Of a DNA stretch of 64,000 nucleotides, positions 18,141 to 27,684 are shown piece after piece; position 1 is the stretch's first letter; every line of letters begins with the position of its first letter. The position numbers were made by a program, and so were the translations under genes. Location of the stretch: positions 124,001 through 188,000 of the forward strand of contig NZ_JABWGN010000010.1 in NCBI RefSeq assembly GCF_013363975.1, given 5' to 3'. This DNA is from Nonomuraea montanisoli. GTDB lineage: Bacteria; Actinomycetota; Actinomycetes; Streptosporangiales; Streptosporangiaceae. The notes beneath the pieces were generated by a model that did not search any database, was not told the origin of the DNA, and was given only the letters and a program-made list of their open reading frames with translations.

Positions 18141-19220
18141 ATGCACATGGATTTTGTGGATCGTCACGACACGAGGACGCGCCACTGGGTGGCGGAGGCC
18201 ATCCGCACAGTGGAGGCCGACGCCAACCGGAGTTGTGACACGCACCTTCATGTCTTTCCGCTGCCCCCGCAGTGGGGGGTAAACCTCTACTTGAAAGACG
18301 AGTCGGTGCACCCCACCGGTTCACTCAAGCACCGCCTGGCCCGCTCGCTCTTCCTGTACGGCCTGGCCAACGGCTGGATCGGCCCCGACACGACGATCGT
18401 CGAGGCGTCCAGCGGATCGACGGCGGTGAGCGAGGCGTACTTCGCCCGGCTGCTCGGCCTGCCGTTCATCGCGGTGATGCCGGCCTCGACCTCGCCGGAG
18501 AAGTGTCACCTCATCGAGTTCCACGGCGGCAAGTGCCACCTCGTCGACGACCCCACGACGATCTACGACGAGTCGCGCCGCCTGGCCGCCGAGACCGGCG
18601 GCCACTTCATGGACCAGTTCACCTACGCCGAGCGGGCCACGGACTGGCGCGGCAACAACAACATCGCCGAGTCCATCTTCGCCCAGATGGCGATGGAGCC
18701 GCACCCCGTGCCCGCCTGGGTCGTCGTCGGCGCCGGCACCGGCGGCACGTCGTCCACGATCGGCCGCTACATCCGCTACCGGCGCCACTCCACCCGCCTG
18801 GCCGTGGCCGACCCGGAGGGCTCGGCCTTCTACCCGTCCTGGGTGTCGGGCGACGCCTCGGTCACCGCGCGCGGCTCGCGGATCGAGGGCATCGGCCGGC
18901 CCCGGGTGGAGCCGTCGTTCCAGCCGTCGGTGATCGACCGCATGCTGGCCGTGCCGGACGCCCGCTCGATCGCGGCCATGCACTGGGTGCGCGAGGTGAC
19001 CGGCCGCGACGTCGGCGGCTCGACCGGCACCAACGTGGCCGCCTGCGTCGAGCTGATCCGGGAGATGCGCGCCGCCGGCGAGCGGGGCAGCATCGTGACC
19101 CTCATCTGCGACGGCGGCGAGCGGTACCGGGGCACGTACTGCGAGCCGGCCTGGCTGGCCGCCCAGGGGCTGGACATCCACCCGCACCTGGACGACCTGC
19201 GCGGCTTCCTGGCGAGCTGA
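18141..19220 (+). CDS. PLP-dependent cysteine synthase-family protein, Cds1-like
   Basis: The 359-residue fold-type II PLP enzyme has [20 protein letters not shown] with the probable PLP-binding Lys, [19 protein letters not shown] as the substrate loop and [20 protein letters not shown] as the phosphate-binding glycine loop. The overall order resembles actinobacterial Cds1 (cysteine desulfhydrase of Mycobacterium tuberculosis) more than CysK, so release of sulfide from cysteine is plausible. Starts at 18141 or 18147 are possible. The neighbouring SigR-like sigma gene lies divergently, which would suit a thiol-stress link, but this is inference. Confidence 0.82.
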
Positions 19221-19237
19221 CCCGGGGATCGGACCCC

Positions 19238-20230
19238 TCAGGCCGCCCTGGCCGGGTCGACGGAGAAGAACCCGGCCAGGTCGTCCAGCATCGCGTGGGC
19301 GCCCTGGATGCCGACCGCGGTCATCCACGTCTGGTCGCTGACCTCGTGCTTGTCGCCCTTGAGCTTGCCCCACAGCGGGTTGGCGACGAACTTGTCCTTG
19401 TACTTCGTCGCCTCGGGGTCGCCGTAGGTGGCCACGAAGATGTGCTCGGCGTCGAGGTCGGCGATGCGCTCCTGGCTGACGTCGACCACGATCGAGTCGG
19501 TGACCGTGGGCTGGCCCTGCGGGCGCGGGAAGCCGACGTCCTTCAGGACGATGCCGGAGTAGGACTTCTCGACGTACAGGCGGGCCGTCGGCTCGCCGGC
19601 GAAGCGGACGATCGAGACGGTGGGCAGCTTCCCGCCCTCCTTGGTCTTGATCTCCTCCCCGATCTTCGCGGCGCGGGCCTCGTACTCCTTGACCCTGGTC
19701 TCGGCGAGCTCCTCCTTGCCGAGCGCCTGGCCCATGAGGCGGACGTTGTCCTTCCAGATGGCCCCGGTGGTCTCGCTGAAGACGGTCGGCGCGATCTTGG
19801 AGAGCTTGTCGTAGAGGTCCCCGTGGCGCACCTTGGCCGAGACGATCAGGTCCGGCTTGAGCGCCAGGATCTTCTCCAGGCTGGGCTGCTCCAGCGTGCC
19901 GACCGGGACGGCCTCCTTGCCGTACTGGCCGGCGACCGTGCCGAGGTAGTCGGGCAGCTTGGTCTCGATGGAGCGGTAGGTGGTGTAGCCGACGACCGGG
20001 GTCTCCAGCGTCAGGACCGCGTCGACGAAGCTCTGGTCGAGGGCGACGACCCGCTTGGGCTGCGCCGGGATCTTCGTCTCGCCCATCGCGTGCTTGACGG
20101 TGCGGAACGGCTTGCCCGCCTGGCTCGTCTCCGAGGAGCCGGCGGCCGTGGACCCCGTGCCGCCCGCACCACAGGCGGCGGCGAGCCCCGCCACCAGCAT
20201 CGCGGCCACCACCGCGCGCAACCGTCTCAT
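19238..20230 (-). CDS. Iron-siderophore ABC transporter substrate-binding lipoprotein
   Basis: The 330-residue protein has a signal peptide with lipobox LAAAC and then a FecB/FhuD-type periplasmic-binding fold: PKRVVALDQSFVDAVLTLET, LKPDLIVSAKVRHGDLYDKL, TVSIVRFAGEPTARLY and a terminal helix LDDLAGFF. It would deliver Fe(III)-siderophore to the divergently encoded permease. Its promoter region holds an IdeR/DmdR-type iron box shared with that operon. Confidence 0.93.
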   Translation of the reverse strand: MRRLRAVVAAMLVAGLAAACGAGGTGSTAAGSSETSQAGKPFRTVKHAMGETKIPAQPKRVVALDQSFVDAVLTLETPVVGYTTYRSIETKLPDYLGTVAGQYGKEAVPVGTLEQPSLEKILALKPDLIVSAKVRHGDLYDKLSKIAPTVFSETTGAIWKDNVRLMGQALGKEELAETRVKEYEARAAKIGEEIKTKEGGKLPTVSIVRFAGEPTARLYVEKSYSGIVLKDVGFPRPQGQPTVTDSIVVDVSQERIADLDAEHIFVATYGDPEATKYKDKFVANPLWGKLKGDKHEVSDQTWMTAVGIQGAHAMLDDLAGFFSVDPARAA

Positions 20231-20269
20231 CGAAACCCCTTCCCGGGTAAAAAGTTAGGCAACCCTTAT

Positions 20270-20288
20270 TTAGGTTAGCCCTGCCTAA
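20270..20288. promoter_or_regulatory. IdeR/DmdR1-type iron box
   Basis: TTAGGTTAGCCCTGCCTAA closely follows the known 19-bp DtxR-family consensus. It lies between the siderophore-binding protein gene and the permease operon, 40 bases from one start and 45 from the other. It predicts iron-dependent repression of both transcripts. A weaker half-match, TTAGGCAACC, precedes it at 20255. Confidence 0.8.
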
Positions 20289-20333
20289 GCTGGCATACTT
20301 CAGCGGGACGGGCAACTGCCGGAAGGGGACCAC

Positions 20334-21368
20334 GTGAGCGCAACCGCCGTCGCGCCGCGCCTCCACGGCATCCGCCGGCGCCGCGGCCTCGTGCTCGCCG
20401 CCCTGCTCGCGGCCGTGTGCGTCGCGGTGGTGCTGAGCGTCACGATCGGCGCCAAGGCCGTGCCCCTCGCCGACGCGTGGACGGCGCTCACCGCGCCCAC
20501 CGGCACCGAGAACGACATCGTCATCCGCTCGCTGCGCGTGCCCAGGACCGCCCTCGGCGTGCTGGCCGGGCTCGCGCTCGGCGTGGCCGGGGCGCTCATG
20601 CAGGGCCACACCCGCAACCCGCTGGCCGACCCGGGCCTGCTCGGCGTCACCCAGGGCGCCGCGTTCGCGATGGTCGCCTCGATCATCCTGCTCGGCACCC
20701 AGAGCCTGCTCGCCTACATCTGGTTCGGCCTGGCGGGCGCGCTGGTCGCCAGCGTGGCCGTGTTCGCGCTCGGCATGGTCGGCGGGCGGGGCGGGCCCAC
20801 GCCGGTCACGCTCGCGCTGGCCGGCACCGCCGTCAGCGCCTTCCTGTACGCCCTGACCTCCGCGCTCGTGCTGCTGGACGAGCAGGCCATGGACGTCTTC
20901 CGGTTCTGGCAGGCCGGCTCCGTCGCCGGCCGGGGCCCGGACGTGGTCTGGCAGGTGCTGCCGTTCATCGTGGTCGGGCTGGTGCTGGCGCTGGTCAACG
21001 CGCCCGGCCTGAACGCGCTGTCCCTCGGCGAGGACGTGGCCCGCAGCCTCGGCCAGAACATCGCCCTCACCCGCGGTGTGGGCGTCACCGCCGTCACCCT
21101 GCTCACCGGGGCGGCGGTGGCCTCCTGCGGGTCGCTCGCGTTCGTCGGGCTCGTGGTGCCGCACCTGGCCCGCCCGCTGTCCGGCACCGACCACCGCTGG
21201 CTGCTGCCGTACTCCGGGCTGATCGGCGCGGCGCTGCTGCTGGTCGCGGACGTGATCGGCCGCGTCGTCGCCCCTCCCGGCGAGCTGGAGGTCGGCGTGG
21301 TGCTGGCGCTGATCGGCGCCCCGTTCTTCGTGGCGCTCGTCCGCCGCAGGAAGCCGGTGCGGCTGTGA
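20334..21368 (+). CDS. Iron-siderophore ABC transporter permease (FecCD family), first subunit
   Basis: The 344-residue inner-membrane permease has about nine to ten segments. Family blocks include [53 protein letters not shown] and [20 protein letters not shown]. It starts the fepDGC-like operon, and its TGA overlaps the GTG of the next gene. Confidence 0.95.
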
Positions 21369-22420
21369 CGACGACTCGTGCCTCTGTCCCGCTGCGCGTG
21401 GCGGGCCTGTCCTGGCGGGTGCGGCCGCGCGGCGTCGCCGTCACCGTGGGCGGCCTGCTGGCACTGGCCCTGCTGATGGCCCTGAACATGCGCCTCGGCG
21501 ACCTGCCCCTCGGGCTGGCCGACGTCGTGCGCGCCACGTTCGACCCGTCCGTGCCCGAGCACTTCGTGGTGATGGAGCTGCGGCTGCCGCGCGCGCTGAC
21601 CGGCGCGCTCGTCGGCGCCGCGCTCGCCCTGTCGGGCGCGATCATCCAGTCCATCGCCCGCAACCCGCTGGCCAGCCCGGAGATCCTCGGCGTCACCACC
21701 GGCGCGTCGGTGACCGTGGTGGCCGGCGTCGTCATGAGCGGCAGCGCGTACGGCGGCGTCAGCGGCCTGTTCTCCGCCCTCGGCATCCCCGCGCTCGCGC
21801 TGCTCGGCGGCCTGGCCGGGGCCGCGATCGTGTACGCGCTGGCCTGGCGGCGCGGCCTCGACGGCTACCGGCTGGTGCTCGTCGGCATCGGCGTGGCGGC
21901 CGTGTTCACCAACGTGAAGTTCTGGCTGCTGACCGTCGGCGACGTCAACGACACCGGCCGCGCCATGGTGTGGATCAGCGGCTCGCTCAACGGCCGTGGC
22001 TGGGAGCACGTCGTACCGGTCGGGCTGGCCCTGGCCGTGCTCGTCCCGCTGACCCTGCTCGGCACCCGCTCGCTCGACGCGCTGCGCTACGGCGACGACA
22101 CCGTCACCGCCCTCGGCGTCCGGGTCAACCTGGCGCGGGCGCTCATGCTGCTCGCCGCCGTGCTGCTGGCGGCCGTGGCGACGGCCTCGGCCGGGCCGAT
22201 CGCGTTCGTGGCCCTCGCCGCGCCGCAGATCGCGCTGCGCGTGGTGCGCTGCGCCCAGCCGCCGCTGCTGTCGTCGGCCGTCACCGGCGCCGTCCTCGCG
22301 ACCGGGGCCGACCTGATCGCGCGCACCGCGTTCTCCCCGATCGAGCTGCCCGTGGGCATCGTCACCGCGGTGCTCGGCGCGCCGTACCTGATCCACCTCA
22401 TCTGGAGGGCACGCTCATGA
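21365..22420 (+). CDS. Iron-siderophore ABC transporter permease (FecCD family), second subunit
   Basis: The 351-residue partner permease has [56 protein letters not shown] and [20 protein letters not shown]. The GTG start at 21365 overlaps the previous stop (GTGA), and its own stop overlaps the next ATG (ATGA), so the three transporter genes are translationally coupled. It would form a heterodimeric channel with the first permease. Confidence 0.95.
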
Positions 22421-23205
22421 GGCTCCAGGCCGCCGGTGTCACGCTGGGCTACGGCGACCGGATCGTCGTCGACGGGCTCGACCTCGGCATCGAGGCGGGC
22501 ACGGTGACCACGATCATCGGGCCCAACGGGTGCGGCAAGTCGACGCTGCTGCGCGCCCTCGGCCGGCTGCTCAAGCCGCGCGGCGGCGAGGTGCTGCTCG
22601 ACGGCAAGCGCATCGACGGCATGCCGACGCGCGAGGTGGCCAAGGTGCTCGGCGTGCTGCCGCAGGCGCCCACCGCGCCCGAGGGGCTGACCGTGGCCGA
22701 CCTGGTCGCGCGGGGCAGGCATCCGCACCAGACGTGGTACCGGCAGTGGTCGTCCGACGACGAGGGCGCGGTGGCCCTCGCCCTGGAGATGACGGGCCTG
22801 GCCGACCTGGCCGAGCGCCCCCTGGACGAGCTGTCGGGCGGCCAGCGGCAGCGGGCCTGGATCTCGATGGCGCTCGCCCAGGGCACCGACCTGCTGCTGC
22901 TCGACGAGCCCACCACGTTCCTGGACCTGGCCCACCAGGTGGAGGTGCTGGAGCTCGTCCGGAACCTGCATCAGGAGGCGGGCAGGACCATCGTGATGGT
23001 CCTGCACGACCTCAACCTCGCGGCCCGGTACGCCGACCGGCTGGTGGCCATGCGCGGCGGCCGCGTGGTGGCCGCGGGCAGCCCGCACGAGGTGCTGACC
23101 GAGGAGCTGATGCGCGAGGTGTTCGAGCTGGACGCCAAGGTCATCGCCGATCCCGTGGCGGGGACTCCGATGGTGGTGCCGATCCGGCCGCTGTCCCGCC
23201 CCTGA
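22417..23205 (+). CDS. Iron-siderophore ABC transporter ATPase
   Basis: The 262-residue ATPase has Walker [12 protein letters not shown], signature [20 protein letters not shown], Walker [13 protein letters not shown] and the H-loop [14 protein letters not shown]. These are typical of FecE/FepC ATPases for siderophores and cobalamin. It ends in a 65-base convergent overlap with the MFS gene on the other strand. Confidence 0.96.
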
Positions 23206-24436
23206 CGTCCTCGACGGTCAGCCGCCGCAGGGGCGAGCGGGCCACCGCGACGGCGATGACCGCCCAGCTCAGGCCGGCGAACATCATGATCGCGTAGGCG
23301 TCGCGCGCCGCCGCCTCGAACAACCCCGACGCCAGCGCCGCCAGCGGGATGGACGCGAAGGCGATCATCCGGGCCGTGCCCAGGACCCGGCCGAGCAGGT
23401 GGTCGGGGATGAGCCGCTGCCGTACGGTCGCCGTGGCCACGATCATCGTCCCCGCCGCCGAGAACTGCCCCGTCCACGCCAGCCCGATCGGGACCGGGCC
23501 CCGGGCGACGGTCATGAGCAGCATCGACGCCCCGCCGGCCACCAGCGACCAGGTCATGATCCGTCCCGGTGGCCACACCCGGATCAGCCACCCGCCCAGC
23601 AGCGCCCCGGCCACCGCGCCCGCCCCCTGGAAGGCGTAGACGACGCCGATCTGGCCCGGCGTGAACCCGTGGTAGGAGCTGAGGTAGTAGACGAGGTCGG
23701 CCAGCAGCAGCCACACGCCGAAGTTGCAGGCGGACGACATGATCGCGGTCGTGAGCACGGCCCGGTCGCCGCGCAGGAGGAACCGCAGCCCCTCCCGCAG
23801 GTCGGCCGCCATCGACCATCGCTTCCGCCTCTCCCCCGCGTCCGCCGTCGCCCCCTTCCGCGCGCCCCCCTTCACGGTGAGGCGCCCGCCGATGAGGGCG
23901 ATCATCAGCGCCGACAGCAGGAACGACCCGGCGTCCACGTACACCGCGACCTGGTAGCCGAACGCCACCACCAGTGCCCCGCCCGCCATCGGCCCCGCCA
24001 TGCTCACCGCGTGCTCGCCGATGTGGACCCGCGCGTTGGCCTGCGGCAGCCGCTCCGCCGGCACCAGGGACGGCACCAGCGCCCGGAACGCCGGCTGGTA
24101 GAGCGGATCGACCGACGCCAGCAGCAGCGCCACCAGGTAGATCGGCCACAGCCGCCCCACGCCCAGGGCCACCATCGCGGCGAGCACCAGCGTGACGACC
24201 GCGGACGCCGTGTCGCCCAGCACCAGCAGCCGCCGCCGGTCGTACCGGTCCGCCAGCACCCCGCCGACCATCCCCAGCAGCAGGTACGGCACGTACTCCA
24301 TGACGTAGACCAGGCCGGTCCCGAGGGGCGACCCCGTGAGGTCGTAGACCAGGAGCGGCAGCGCCAGGCGGTAGATCCACGTGCCCAGCGACGAGGCCAG
24401 GAACCCGGTCAGCAGGAGCCAGTAGGACCGGCCCAC
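23141..24436 (-). CDS. MFS transporter, exporter-like, in the peptide/TPR set
   Basis: The 431-residue transporter has about twelve membrane segments. It shows [20 protein letters not shown] at the N-terminus and [18 protein letters not shown] as the loop 2-3 motif, as in the MFS_3/enterobactin-exporter-like group. It starts with GTG three bases after the TPR gene's stop, so the two are coupled. It may export the product of the small peptide gene or another molecule. Its last 21 codons overlap the siderophore ATPase gene on the other strand. Confidence 0.87.
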
Positions 24437-24439
24437 GAC

Positions 24440-26164
24440 TCACGCCTCCGCGAGCGCCCGCCGGATGTCGGGGTCTCTTGGAGCCAGCCGCGCGGCCCGC
24501 AGGAGGTCCTGGCGCGCCTCGTCCGGCCGGCCCGCCGCGTTGTGCACCAGATGCCGGTTGAACAGCAGCTCGGCCGTCTCCTCCAGCTTCAGCGCCCGCG
24601 TGAGGTCGGACAGGGCGGCGGCGTGGTCGCCCTCCTCGTAGGCCGCGGCGGCCCGGCCCGCCCAGGCCGCCACCAGGTCCGGGTCGAGCTCCAGGGCGGC
24701 GTCGAACGCGGCCACGGCCTCCGCCCGCCGCCCCTCGGCCGCCTCCACCTGGCCGAGCACGCACCTGAGGTGCGGGCTGCGCGGGTCGAGGGCGAGCCCG
24801 CGCTCCGCGTCGCGCCGGGCCGCGGCGTGCTCGCCCGCCGCGGCCAGCAGCCCGGCCCGGTTCACGTACGCCGGGGCGAAGCGCGGGTCGAGGTCGAGCG
24901 TGTGGTCGAGGTCGGCGAGCGCGCCGTCGAGGTCGCCGGTCGTGTACCGGATCTCCGCGCGGTTGTAGTACGCCTCGGGGAACGGGGGGCTGAGGCGGAT
25001 CGCGGCCTCGAAGTCGGCCCGCGCGTCCTCGTGGCGGCCCAGCTTGTGCAGCAGGGTGCCGCGGTCGAGGTAGTAGTCGGGGTAGCCCGGGTCGGCGCCG
25101 ATGGCGATCGCGTAGTCGGCCAGCGCCTCCTGCGTGCGGCCGGTGGCGGCCAGGAGCTGGGCGCGGTTGGCGTACAGCACGAGCCGGTGGATCGGGTGCG
25201 TGCCGGCCAGGTGCTCCTCGGCCAGGTCGATGGCCTCGCGCACCAGGTCGAGGGCGTTGTCCAGGTTGCCCCTGCGCACCTCGACCAGGGCCTTGCCGTT
25301 GAGGTCGAAGCCCAGGTGGAAGGCCCGCTCGCGGGGGTCCGGCAGCAGCGAGGTGATCGTGACGGCCTCGTTGGCCCAGGACAGGGCCTCCTCCGGGTCG
25401 CGCCGGGCGAGGTCGTGGTGGCGCACCAGCAGCATGGCCGTGGCGTACGCGATCGTGGCGCGGTGCTTGGGGTCGACGGTCAGGCGGCGGGCCCGGTCGT
25501 ACAGGGCACGGGCCTCGTCCTCCCGCTCGACGGCCTCCAGCGAGCCGCCCACGCGCTGCACCAGGGTCCGCCAGCCGTCCGGGTCGCCCTCGTACGTCAT
25601 GCCGCGCAGCGCCTCCAGGCCGGCCTCGGCCATGGCGTGATGGAAGCCCTCGTCGCGGAAGCGGTCGAAGTCGGCGTCGACCGGGCCGCCCGACGGCGCG
25701 GACCGGCCGGGGACGATCCGCAGCAGGCCGGGGTCCACCCGCCTGCGCAGCACCTCGACCAGCTCGGCGTCGGTGGGATCGGCCTCGTCGAGGTTGTCGA
25801 CGGTGACGGTCAGGGGACGGGTGCGGGTCAGATGGTCGCGGACGAACTCGGCCAGACCGTTCGCGATCCTCAAGGTGCGGCGGGCGCCGGGGATGAGGAT
25901 GCGCTGCGCCCTCGGCAGCGTCTCGGCCAGGGAGCGCCTGCGCCGGGGAATGCTCAGCTGCGGCGCCGCGACTCCGATCTCGATGTCGTACGCGGCGACG
26001 AGGTCGGGCCCGCGGCCCGGTGCCCCCGGGACGGGGCGGTCCAGCAGCGCCCCCGGGACGGGGCGGTCCAGCAGCGCCTCGGGGACGAGGCGGTCCAGCA
26101 GCGCGGCCGCGAACGTGTAGGGGCCGTGGAGCCTGCGGTCGGCGTCCAGGACGATGGATTCCAC
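24440..26164 (-). CDS. TPR protein with degenerate ATPase-like N-terminus
   Basis: The 574-residue protein has no signal peptide. Residues 1-150 resemble a STAND/AAA remnant: RTLRIANGLAEFVRDHL, then LTVTVDNLDEADPTDAELVE in the place of Walker B, but no P-loop. From about residue 200 to the end there are about ten TPR units, such as ALADYAIAIGADPGYPDYYL, ARADFEAAIRLSPPFPEAYY and AVAAFDAALELDPDLVAAWA. A nine-residue LLDRPVPGA repeat expands the N-terminus. The GTG start follows GAAGAAGG. It lies between a 24-codon peptide gene and an exporter, so peptide binding by the TPR superhelix is a reasonable but unproven idea. Confidence 0.82.
   Translation of the reverse strand: MESIVLDADRRLHGPYTFAAALLDRLVPEALLDRPVPGALLDRPVPGAPGRGPDLVAAYDIEIGVAAPQLSIPRRRRSLAETLPRAQRILIPGARRTLRIANGLAEFVRDHLTRTRPLTVTVDNLDEADPTDAELVEVLRRRVDPGLLRIVPGRSAPSGGPVDADFDRFRDEGFHHAMAEAGLEALRGMTYEGDPDGWRTLVQRVGGSLEAVEREDEARALYDRARRLTVDPKHRATIAYATAMLLVRHHDLARRDPEEALSWANEAVTITSLLPDPRERAFHLGFDLNGKALVEVRRGNLDNALDLVREAIDLAEEHLAGTHPIHRLVLYANRAQLLAATGRTQEALADYAIAIGADPGYPDYYLDRGTLLHKLGRHEDARADFEAAIRLSPPFPEAYYNRAEIRYTTGDLDGALADLDHTLDLDPRFAPAYVNRAGLLAAAGEHAAARRDAERGLALDPRSPHLRCVLGQVEAAEGRRAEAVAAFDAALELDPDLVAAWAGRAAAAYEEGDHAAALSDLTRALKLEETAELLFNRHLVHNAAGRPDEARQDLLRAARLAPRDPDIRRALAEA
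26024..26104 (-). repeat. 27-bp tandem coding repeat, 3 copies
   Basis: Units at 26024-26050, 26051-26077 and 26078-26104 share gggcggtccagcagcgc and encode LLDRPVPGA-type blocks of the TPR protein. The first two are nearly identical. Confidence 0.8.
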
Positions 26165-26240
26165 CCGAACCTTCTTCCGTGATCCGTCTCCGGTCGCGCT
26201 GCGGCCGGCGTCCCTTCACGGGACGCCGACCGGGCGGGAA

Positions 26241-26315
26241 TCAGCCCACGTGCCGCGGAGCGGCCGCACCGGAGGGCTTCACGGTTCCAGGCTTGTGGAC
26301 GACGACCTTCTTCAT
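26241..26315 (-). CDS. 24-residue basic peptide, candidate precursor or signal peptide
   Basis: A 24-codon frame begins MKKVVVHKPGTVKP and ends APRHVG, then TGA. GAGG lies seven bases before the ATG, a good ribosome-binding site. The product is strongly basic, has no Cys, Ser-rich core or signal sequence, and ends 76 bases before the TPR gene on the same strand. Short leaders of this MKK-VVV-K type with a downstream processing or sensing gene and an exporter suggest a ribosomally made peptide product, but I know of no named family. Evidence is position, start signal and composition only. Confidence 0.5.
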   Translation of the reverse strand: MKKVVVHKPGTVKPSGAAAPRHVG

Positions 26316-26452
26316 CGGGGTGCCTCTCGTGTACCAGCATGACGAGACCGGCGCGAACCGTCGCGGGGCGATCTCTCGGATGACCGGTTCATGTGAACAC
26401 ATGCCGATGTGGGCGATCAAGGCTTTTCCGGGTAAGTAAAATTTCCTGTCCA

Positions 26453-26495
26453 ATTTTCGGAAATAGCCATAACAGGAATGGCCGTATCCGAAAAT
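26453..26495 (-). terminator. Long hairpin downstream of ftsY
   Basis: A 9-bp outer stem, ATTTTCGGA (26453-26461) with TCCGAAAAT (26487-26495), encloses an inner GCCAT/ATGGC stem. It lies within an AT-rich pocket, unlike its surroundings, between the ftsY stop and the peptide gene. It may end ftsY transcription or regulate the peptide set. The remaining bases up to 26316 hold no other clear signal. Confidence 0.5.
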
Positions 26496-26505
26496 AATGC
26501 GGCCG

Positions 26506-27684
26506 TTATTCCCCGATAATCGCGTCCACGAAGACCTCGGGATCGAAGGGCGCCAGGTCGTCGGCCCCCTCGCCGAGACCGGCCAGCTTGACCGGAACCC
26601 CCAGCTCCCGCTGGACCGAGATGACGATGCCGCCCTTGGCCGTGCCGTCGAGCTTGGTCAGCGCGATGCCGGTGATGTTGACCACCTCGCCGAACACCTG
26701 GGCCTGGCGCATGCCGTTCTGGCCCGTGGTCGCGTCGAGGACGAGCAGCACCTCGTCGACGGTGGCCTTCTTCTCGATGACCCGCTTGACCTTGCCCAGC
26801 TCGTCCATCAGGCCCGTCTTGGTGTGCAGCCGGCCGGCCGTGTCGACGATGACCACGTCGGCCTTGTCCTCGATGCCCTTGGAGACGGCGTCGAAGGCCA
26901 CCGAGGCCGGGTCGCCGCCCTCCGGGCCGCGCACGGTCTCGGCGCCGACGCGCTCGCCCCAGGTCTGGAGCTGGTCGGCCGCCGCCGCGCGGAACGTGTC
27001 GGCCGCGCCGAGCACGACCTTCTTGCCGTCGCCGACGAGGACGCGGGCGAGCTTGCCGGTGGTGGTGGTCTTGCCGGTGCCGTTGACGCCGACGACCAGC
27101 ACCACCGCGGCCCGCTCGCCGTGCGGCTGGACGTGCAGGGTGCGGTCGAGGTCGGGGTTGACCTGGATGAGGAGCTGCTCGCGCAGCAGCGCGCGCACCT
27201 CTTCGGGGGTGCGGCTGCCGAGCACCTTGACCTTGGTGCGCAGCTCCTCGACGATCGCCTGGGTGGGCGCCACGCCGACGTCGGCCTTGATCAGCAGCTC
27301 CTCGACCTCGTCCCACACCTCGTCGTCGAGGCGGTCGCGGGAGAGCAGGTCGAGCAGGCCGCGGCCGAGCGCGCTCTGCGAGCGGGCCAGCCGGGACCGC
27401 AGCCGCACCATCCGGCCCGCGGACGGGAGCGGGACCTCCACCTCGGGCTTGACGACCATCGGCTCGGCCGGCTTGACCGGCGGGGGGAGCGTGGTGGTCG
27501 CTCCTTCGCCCTCCTCGGCCCCCGTCTTCGGGCGCTCCTTCTCCTCCTGCGGGAGGGGCGCCGTCTCGGGCGGCTCGACCGGCGGCGCGGACTTGCCGCC
27601 CGGCCTGAAGAGCAGGAAGAGGCCGCCCGCCGCCAGCAGGGCGACGACGACCACGATGACTATGACGCCGAGGTAACCATCCAC
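26506..27684 (-). CDS. ftsY: Signal recognition particle receptor FtsY
   Basis: The 392-residue protein has an N-terminal membrane segment (VIVIVVVVALLAAGGLFLLF), an acidic/proline linker, and the SRP NG domain with GVNGTGKTTTTGKLA, AADTFRAAAADQLQTW, DTAGRLHTKTGLM and TKLDGTAKGG. It docks SRP-ribosome complexes at the membrane for co-translational insertion. It lies downstream of smc in the usual actinobacterial order. Confidence 0.97.
   Translation of the reverse strand: MDGYLGVIVIVVVVALLAAGGLFLLFRPGGKSAPPVEPPETAPLPQEEKERPKTGAEEGEGATTTLPPPVKPAEPMVVKPEVEVPLPSAGRMVRLRSRLARSQSALGRGLLDLLSRDRLDDEVWDEVEELLIKADVGVAPTQAIVEELRTKVKVLGSRTPEEVRALLREQLLIQVNPDLDRTLHVQPHGERAAVVLVVGVNGTGKTTTTGKLARVLVGDGKKVVLGAADTFRAAAADQLQTWGERVGAETVRGPEGGDPASVAFDAVSKGIEDKADVVIVDTAGRLHTKTGLMDELGKVKRVIEKKATVDEVLLVLDATTGQNGMRQAQVFGEVVNITGIALTKLDGTAKGGIVISVQRELGVPVKLAGLGEGADDLAPFDPEVFVDAIIGE

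Follow-up and report, generated by a model that had tools for sequence, protein, structure and literature searches.

A 64,000-nucleotide stretch of the Nonomuraea montanisoli genome (contig NZ_JABWGN010000010.1, positions 124,001 to 188,000; hereafter the window) carries on its minus strand a 24-codon gene for a short basic peptide, followed by genes for a tetratricopeptide repeat (TPR) protein with an N-terminal head domain and for a major facilitator superfamily (MFS) protein. An earlier reading of the sequence (the original prediction) proposed that the three form a linked set, either a peptide signal or a pathway resembling those of ribosomally synthesized and post-translationally modified peptides (RiPPs). 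The elements lie as follows.

26241–26315, minus strand: peptide gene of 24 codons (MKKVVVHKPGTVKPSGAAAPRHVG), with its ATG at 26315 and its stop codon ending at 26241
26323–26328, minus strand: ribosome-binding site GAGAGG, 7 bases 5′ of the peptide ATG
24440–26164, minus strand: head-plus-TPR protein of 574 amino acids, GTG start at 26164, with a pseudo-AAA head and a TPR superhelix like that of O-GlcNAc transferase (OGT)
23141–24436, minus strand: MFS transporter of 431 amino acids, GTG start at 24436, with an MFS_1 match; an optional companion

The reading frame, ribosome-binding site, gene order and spacings (76 bases between the peptide gene and the TPR start, 3 bases between the TPR stop and the MFS start) are all as originally predicted, and a purine-rich stretch stands at the position of the ribosome site in most relatives. 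The window peptide has no match in Pfam or NCBIfam. A second peptide/TPR pair is present on contig 4 of the same genome, with the peptide MKRIVVHKPGSAKLTGTASVIHKG.

Searched with the TPR protein, our genome collection yielded 123 confirmed relatives, the best 80 of which, nearly all from organisms named Nonomuraea, Streptosporangium or neighbouring genera, were used as a set of loci (loci and genomes are identified by L and G numbers). A peptide homologue was found in 78 of these 80 loci (77 by pattern, with L066 added by a looser look); the exceptions are L068, which has no peptide homologue in its flank, and L073, which begins at a contig end. Short peptides had been expected just upstream of TPR homologues, and 75 of the 80 loci have one there, on the same strand and no more than 420 nt from the start of the TPR match; three more (L057, L066 and L074) are divergent, with the peptide on the opposite strand about 2.4–2.7 kb from the TPR gene. 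The small frame is conserved next to TPR homologues and open in the homologues found, neither a lack of conservation nor an interrupted frame having been encountered. Across 42 sequences (the window and L001–L041), mean variability at codon positions 1, 2 and 3 is 0.13, 0.12 and 0.25, compared with 0.55 upstream and 0.52 downstream of the gene, and the ratio of non-synonymous to synonymous polymorphism (pN/pS) is 0.32, or 0.43 over all 75 sequences with exactly 24 codons. The peptide is mostly conserved up to His22, which is present in 79 of 79 peptides from the 80 TPR loci, none of them with Cys at positions 16–22; codons 23 and 24 are as variable as non-coding sequence. The 24-codon gene is therefore real and under purifying selection, and its presence at 78 of 80 loci together with the conservation of its frame rules out a chance reading frame.

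The association between peptide and head extends beyond these loci. The peptide profile matched 12, and the head profile 18, of 296 genomes sampled across the class (E up to 0.001), and all 21 head matches with E up to 3e-29 have a leader-peptide match within 2 kb upstream on the same strand, as judged by comparing coordinates by eye; three of the peptide matches are weak (E 0.002–0.011) and were read in the DNA. Of 150 genomes scanned in the window's family, the head profile matched 71 and the peptide profile 67, and a peptide lies just upstream of 85 of the 89 heads with E below 1e-40, at a median peptide–head distance of 148 nt over all 87 pairs. The four strong heads that have no upstream match comprise one in G808, which has a divergent peptide (MKKIIVCKHTLAKLTGSSSVIHKG), and three with the peptide gene on another contig. 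The peptide profile matches beside 2 of the 16 heads with E between 1e-40 and 1e-30 and beside none of the eight weaker ones; most of the heads weaker than 1e-40 that we fetched proved to have other peptides. Taken together, these data show that the peptide gene and the head-plus-TPR gene form a conserved pair, a small precursor gene being kept beside a dedicated partner in 78 of 80 and 85 of 89 loci.

The partner protein consists of a pseudo-AAA head (approximately residues 1–155) and an OGT-like TPR superhelix (approximately residues 160–574) with conserved Asn residues. Modelled alone, it reaches a predicted local distance difference test score (pLDDT) of 95.6, with the head as a small α/β domain. 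Pfam returned TPR-type repeats and a partial AAA_16 match (E 0.0034, below cut-off, covering the last third of the model, positions 109–161 of 167), with no DNA-binding domain, and none is apparent in the structure model. Among 50 aligned homologues, some trimmed N-terminally, none shows within its first 200 residues the P-loop (Walker A, [AG]x4GK[ST]) of STAND (signal transduction ATPases with numerous domains)/AAA_16 ATPases; with the partial AAA_16 match, this bears out the degenerate ATPase-like head of the original prediction. A profile search of the PDB returned one match for the head (E 1.3) and the fold search was filled by TPR hits, so the head could not be placed, and these searches, which barely probed it, exclude no fold. 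The superhelix differs from that of OGT itself (1w3b) in that no glycosyltransferase domain is attached. Within the TPR gene, a 27-bp tandem repeat in three copies (window positions 26022–26104) adds about 18 residues (LLDRPVPGA repeats) that are absent from the nearest relatives, L001 and L006; in the model, residues 40–46 of the repeat stretch are of low confidence. A defence system was also considered, and PADLOC gave no match for the TPR protein, the MFS protein and one protease of the relatives described below.

Other loci combine a peptide bearing the same kind of leader (KKIxVRKxGxVRLT) and the TPR partner with a third gene, the product of which is a site-2-type metalloprotease joined to a predicted RiPP recognition element (RRE). 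The protease is matched in 46 of the 150 genomes of family f37, with 16 places at E below 1e-120. These 16 places with their flanks (L156 and L201–L215) plus L157–L159 gave 19 protease loci, in all of which protease and head occur together. A flavin reductase is present in 13 of the 19 and a Streptomyces antibiotic regulatory protein (SARP, BTAD) regulator in nine (by tblastn, with Pfam for two of each); apart from antisense frames, no other family recurs in at least three of the 19 among frames of at least 100 codons in the flanks examined, some contigs being short. The loci hold one precursor or up to nine in tandem (L210), and in some cases the protease gene, 1.2 kb long, lies between a peptide gene and the TPR gene. 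Of 14 more mid-range heads from the window's family (L245–L257 and L262), 12 have both protease and precursor. All 59 precursors from 31 protease loci, found by a leader pattern that misses one of the nine in L210, carry a Cys in the tail and a Tyr 6–8 residues after T15. The leader is less variable than the core (0.67 versus 2.17 bits in 24 of 48 precursors), and in these 24 the residues R7, L14 and T15 never change. A structure model supports the predicted RRE–protease fusion; two of the proteases had no library match better than E 0.09, and four peptides of this branch, scanned against NCBIfam only, had no match there. The comparison shows a larger family, the other branch of which adds a predicted RRE–site-2 protease, variable Cys/Tyr tails and sometimes tandem precursors. 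This combination of conserved leader, variable tails, RRE–protease and tandem precursors is RiPP-type anatomy, nearest to that of the daptides.

Two side observations concern related proteases. A second group of M50-like proteases lies further away (E near 1e-50; L185, L186, L188, L189, L191 and L193). Upstream of these are short peptides whose leader is a different one, for example MKKLVVRKLEPIKTSAAADCVPSAA and MKLEIRKVENTRLTAHTCNSCES, and the four loci fetched from the group (L216–L219) gave no TPR head; its peptides look like another unnamed precursor family. In L220 (G593, from the same phylum and another class), an M50-like gene is followed by one for a TPR protein with a weak head match, so the protease/TPR pair may reach beyond the class.

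In a tree of 50 TPR proteins (unrooted, made by a quick method), one branch separates the 16 protease-linked from the 34 protease-less proteins, with a Shimodaira–Hasegawa-like approximate likelihood-ratio test (SH-aLRT) value of 100. The peptides also differ between the branches. In the 17 group I peptides of the window's branch, R7 is replaced by H in 16 and by Y in one, position 14 is L or P, and position 15 varies; in the seven group II peptides, which have SVIHKG tails, R7 is kept in six and L14 in all seven. Both branches keep K2, V/I6, K8 and mostly G10 and V12, and the N-terminus, not the tail, is the most conserved part across the family. The tail of the window's branch is a Cys-free [SAT]19-[PAV]20-[KRI]21-H22. 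We infer that the changes at positions 7, 14 and 15 reflect relief from the RRE–protease while the TPR partner would still hold K2, V/I6 and K8. Second peptide/TPR copies and one unpaired peptide make up L160–L162 and L164–L166; near several of the SVIHKG-type peptides of these loci lies a gene of about 535–554 residues with weak TPR matches (by Pfam in one case), possibly a regulator.

We compared the family with described systems. Daptide clusters, as PMC10036551 describes them, encode an RRE fused to the intramembrane site-2 protease MpaP, several short precursors with a conserved N-terminal motif (the leader ELExMEAP) and a C-terminal Thr that does not vary, together with an aminotransferase, an alcohol dehydrogenase and a methyltransferase. 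The short multiple precursors, the conserved N-terminal motif and the actinobacterial hosts are shared, as is the RRE–site-2-protease fusion predicted for the sister branch, which has no match in the window's genome. However, the leader here is KKIxVRKxGxVRLT, precursors read by inspection lack the invariant C-terminal Thr, the head-plus-TPR protein is constant, a flavin reductase accompanies 13 of the 19 protease loci, and the window's branch has no protease. Because no further family recurs in at least three of the 19 loci, the daptide enzyme set appears to be missing, although its three enzymes were not searched individually and some contigs are short; membership of the daptides was rejected on these grounds. 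Epipeptide and pearlin clusters likewise include membrane M50 proteases for ribosomal peptides (EpeP, TglG and TmoG), but the 19 loci have in common no radical S-adenosylmethionine (SAM) enzyme or aminoacyl-tRNA ligase of the kind described in PMC10885120. A biphenomycin-like cluster also places genes for a TPR-rich protein, an MFS protein and a metalloprotease near a RiPP precursor, but its TPR-rich protein, the arginase PbsE, belongs to a hydrolase family and is accompanied by a multinuclear non-haem iron-dependent oxidase (MNIO) and a B12 radical SAM enzyme (compared by description; PMC12257519). In TMcins, a site-2-clan membrane protease, TmcP, removes the leader; as described in PMC13252029, these differ in being staphylococcal, with a precursor that has a transmembrane helix and a DUF3267-type protease.

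On balance, the two genes of the window probably form an offshoot, lacking the protease, of an RRE/site-2-protease peptide family that is apparently undescribed, and the TPR protein would be the dedicated partner that binds the peptide. Since the leader differs and the daptide enzyme set does not recur, we class the pair as such an offshoot and as neither a proven RiPP nor a daptide. The N-terminal half of the peptide would serve as a leader for recognition. Where the protease is present, the RRE would read this leader through R7, L14 and T15 and the membrane protease would cut the tail off. The head-plus-TPR protein, the sole partner found in both branches, would also bind the leader, through the residues that both keep (K2, V/I6, K8 and mostly G10 and V12). 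It would probably do so in its TPR groove and act as a dedicated carrier or a platform for assembly. In the window's branch, where the protease gene is absent, R7 is H in group I, T15 is relaxed and the tail is Cys-free with H22, the peptide would be held by the TPR protein and then either used as is or trimmed by another protease. Where an MFS protein is present, it would export the product.

Several observations weigh against this reading. Because the tree is unrooted, loss rather than gain of the protease is assumed. The tail of the window's branch is not variable and no protease match occurs in the window's locus or genome, which leaves processing in this branch without an explanation. The constant leader and variable core of the original prediction hold for the protease branch but not for the window's, and it is at the family level that the set is RiPP-like; the claim that no usual maturase is involved held, as none recurs in the relatives. 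Among 14 genomes with heads, a strong protease (E below 1e-160) is found in exactly four, those with protease loci; more distant M50-like proteins occur elsewhere, also or only, in G131, G016, G087, G141, G161 and G095 (E about 1e-45 to 1e-62), and G259 has a weak M50-like fragment. As G131, G016, G087, G141 and, weakly, G259 are protease-less, processing in trans is possible in some such genomes. In L258–L260, where the heads are far more remote (E about 1e-15 to 1e-17) and the protease gave no match, the peptides are of the type MKKMTIRRKGAVRLLSGARRLWFEWCW, and their Trp/Cys tails (...ARRLWFEWCW) mean that loss of Cys is not tied everywhere to an absent protease. Among the mid-range heads, L245 is protease-less with a His22 peptide (MKKIAVHKPEIKQLAGKAATAHGAP) and L247 gave neither protease nor convincing peptide; none came from L261 either, a locus outside this mid-range set. 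The RRE match is weak by sequence (E 0.02), a search of the protease model with Foldseek alone returned nothing at E up to 0.001 (3b4r came closest at 0.16, then 5v1v at 0.66), and 10 of the 97 peptide genes in the 150 genomes of the window's family are unpaired with a TPR head.

An unlikely alternative is a pheromone and its receptor, in which the peptide, whole or as its C-terminal part, would leave the cell and come back to be sensed by the TPR superhelix, with the head relaying the signal. RRNPP regulators are TPR receptors that sense peptides and act through a helix-turn-helix or phosphatase output domain, and the window resembles them in having a TPR protein beside a short peptide gene. 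The conserved Asn residues of the superhelix, the SARP matches in nine of 19 protease loci, the weakly TPR-matching gene that accompanies several second copies, the MFS genes of some loci and the conserved tail of the window's branch would all suit such a circuit. Yet Pfam and the structure model show no DNA-binding domain in the TPR protein, the exporter is not constant, and sequence conservation across branches is highest at the N-terminus. With TPR repeats, a partial AAA_16 match and a small α/β pseudo-AAA head in place of a helix-turn-helix or phosphatase output, and a basic peptide conserved at its N-terminus, the pair does not fit the RRNPP regulators.

That the peptide is a micro-subunit, permanently completing or stabilizing the TPR protein and never processed, seems quite improbable: near full-length conservation in the window's branch, a genome free of protease matches and the usual single peptide gene per TPR gene speak for it, but up to nine tandem precursors with differing tails lie beside one TPR gene in the protease branch, and the TPR protein alone is modelled with high confidence. 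A regulatory leader frame (an attenuator or arrest peptide), controlling translation of the TPR–MFS operon and important only in being translated, would suit the short upstream distance and the good ribosome site but is very improbable given selection at the amino-acid level and gene orders in which peptide genes are tandem, separated by the protease gene, on the opposite strand or unpaired.

The MFS protein matches MFS_1 (Pfam, E 3.9e-35), as do those of L048, L057 and L066. An MFS gene adjoins the TPR gene in 15 of the 80 loci by clustering of roughly called frames and in 12 by tblastn, so the fixed third member originally proposed was not borne out and a core role is ruled out. It lies 3′ of the TPR gene in Nonomuraea-type and Streptosporangium loci and 5′ in L057, L066 and L074. 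Its best models are the H+ antiporter TIGR00900 (191.6 bits) and then EntS (104.2 bits), both below their cut-offs; a score of 19.6 bits against a cut-off of 575 for the ryptide MFS model (NF041056) reads as general MFS similarity. Beyond it, window positions 18141–23205 hold, as named by eye, iron-siderophore-type ABC uptake genes (a binding protein, two permeases and an ATPase) and a cysteine-synthase-like gene; MFS–TPR linkage also occurs in L048, L053 and L077, which have no tblastn matches to the uptake genes. In L057, L066 and L074, a TPR gene (343 amino acids in L074, 458 in L057) precedes the peptide on one strand, and the divergent side carries the MFS gene, the TPR-head gene and a gene whose large product contains a GDLHVH motif and looks PHP-like by eye.

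One further feature lies 5′ of the peptide gene.

About 26453–26495, minus strand: poorly conserved AT-rich hairpin, lying between ftsY and the peptide gene

Both the AT-rich pocket of the original prediction (26425–26505, adjoining ftsY, 43% GC) and its hairpin exist, but the hairpin is probably not part of the system, since an alignment with six relatives, judged by eye, shows it in the two nearest but not in the other four. With no Rfam match in 26100–26700 and a z-score of −1.81 for the whole hairpin region, a regulatory RNA of the set was rejected.

No description of the family or its leader motif was found in the open-access literature searched, most subscription papers lying outside that search. 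We tentatively propose, with some doubt, that it could represent a class of peptides not described before, whose leader has as its universal partner a pseudo-ATPase TPR superhelix instead of a classical maturase; the protease branch would release Cys/Tyr-rich products, and the window's branch would have lost the protease and fixed its peptide as an intracellular or exported signal. The libraries tried (Pfam and NCBIfam) do not recognize this peptide family, and the motif KKIxVRKxGxVRLT beside an RRE–site-2 protease and a head-plus-TPR protein offers a means of finding its clusters. The two branches, differing in the protease, in Cys/Tyr or His22 tails and in leader residues R7 and T15, form a comparison set and thereby make leader recognition testable.

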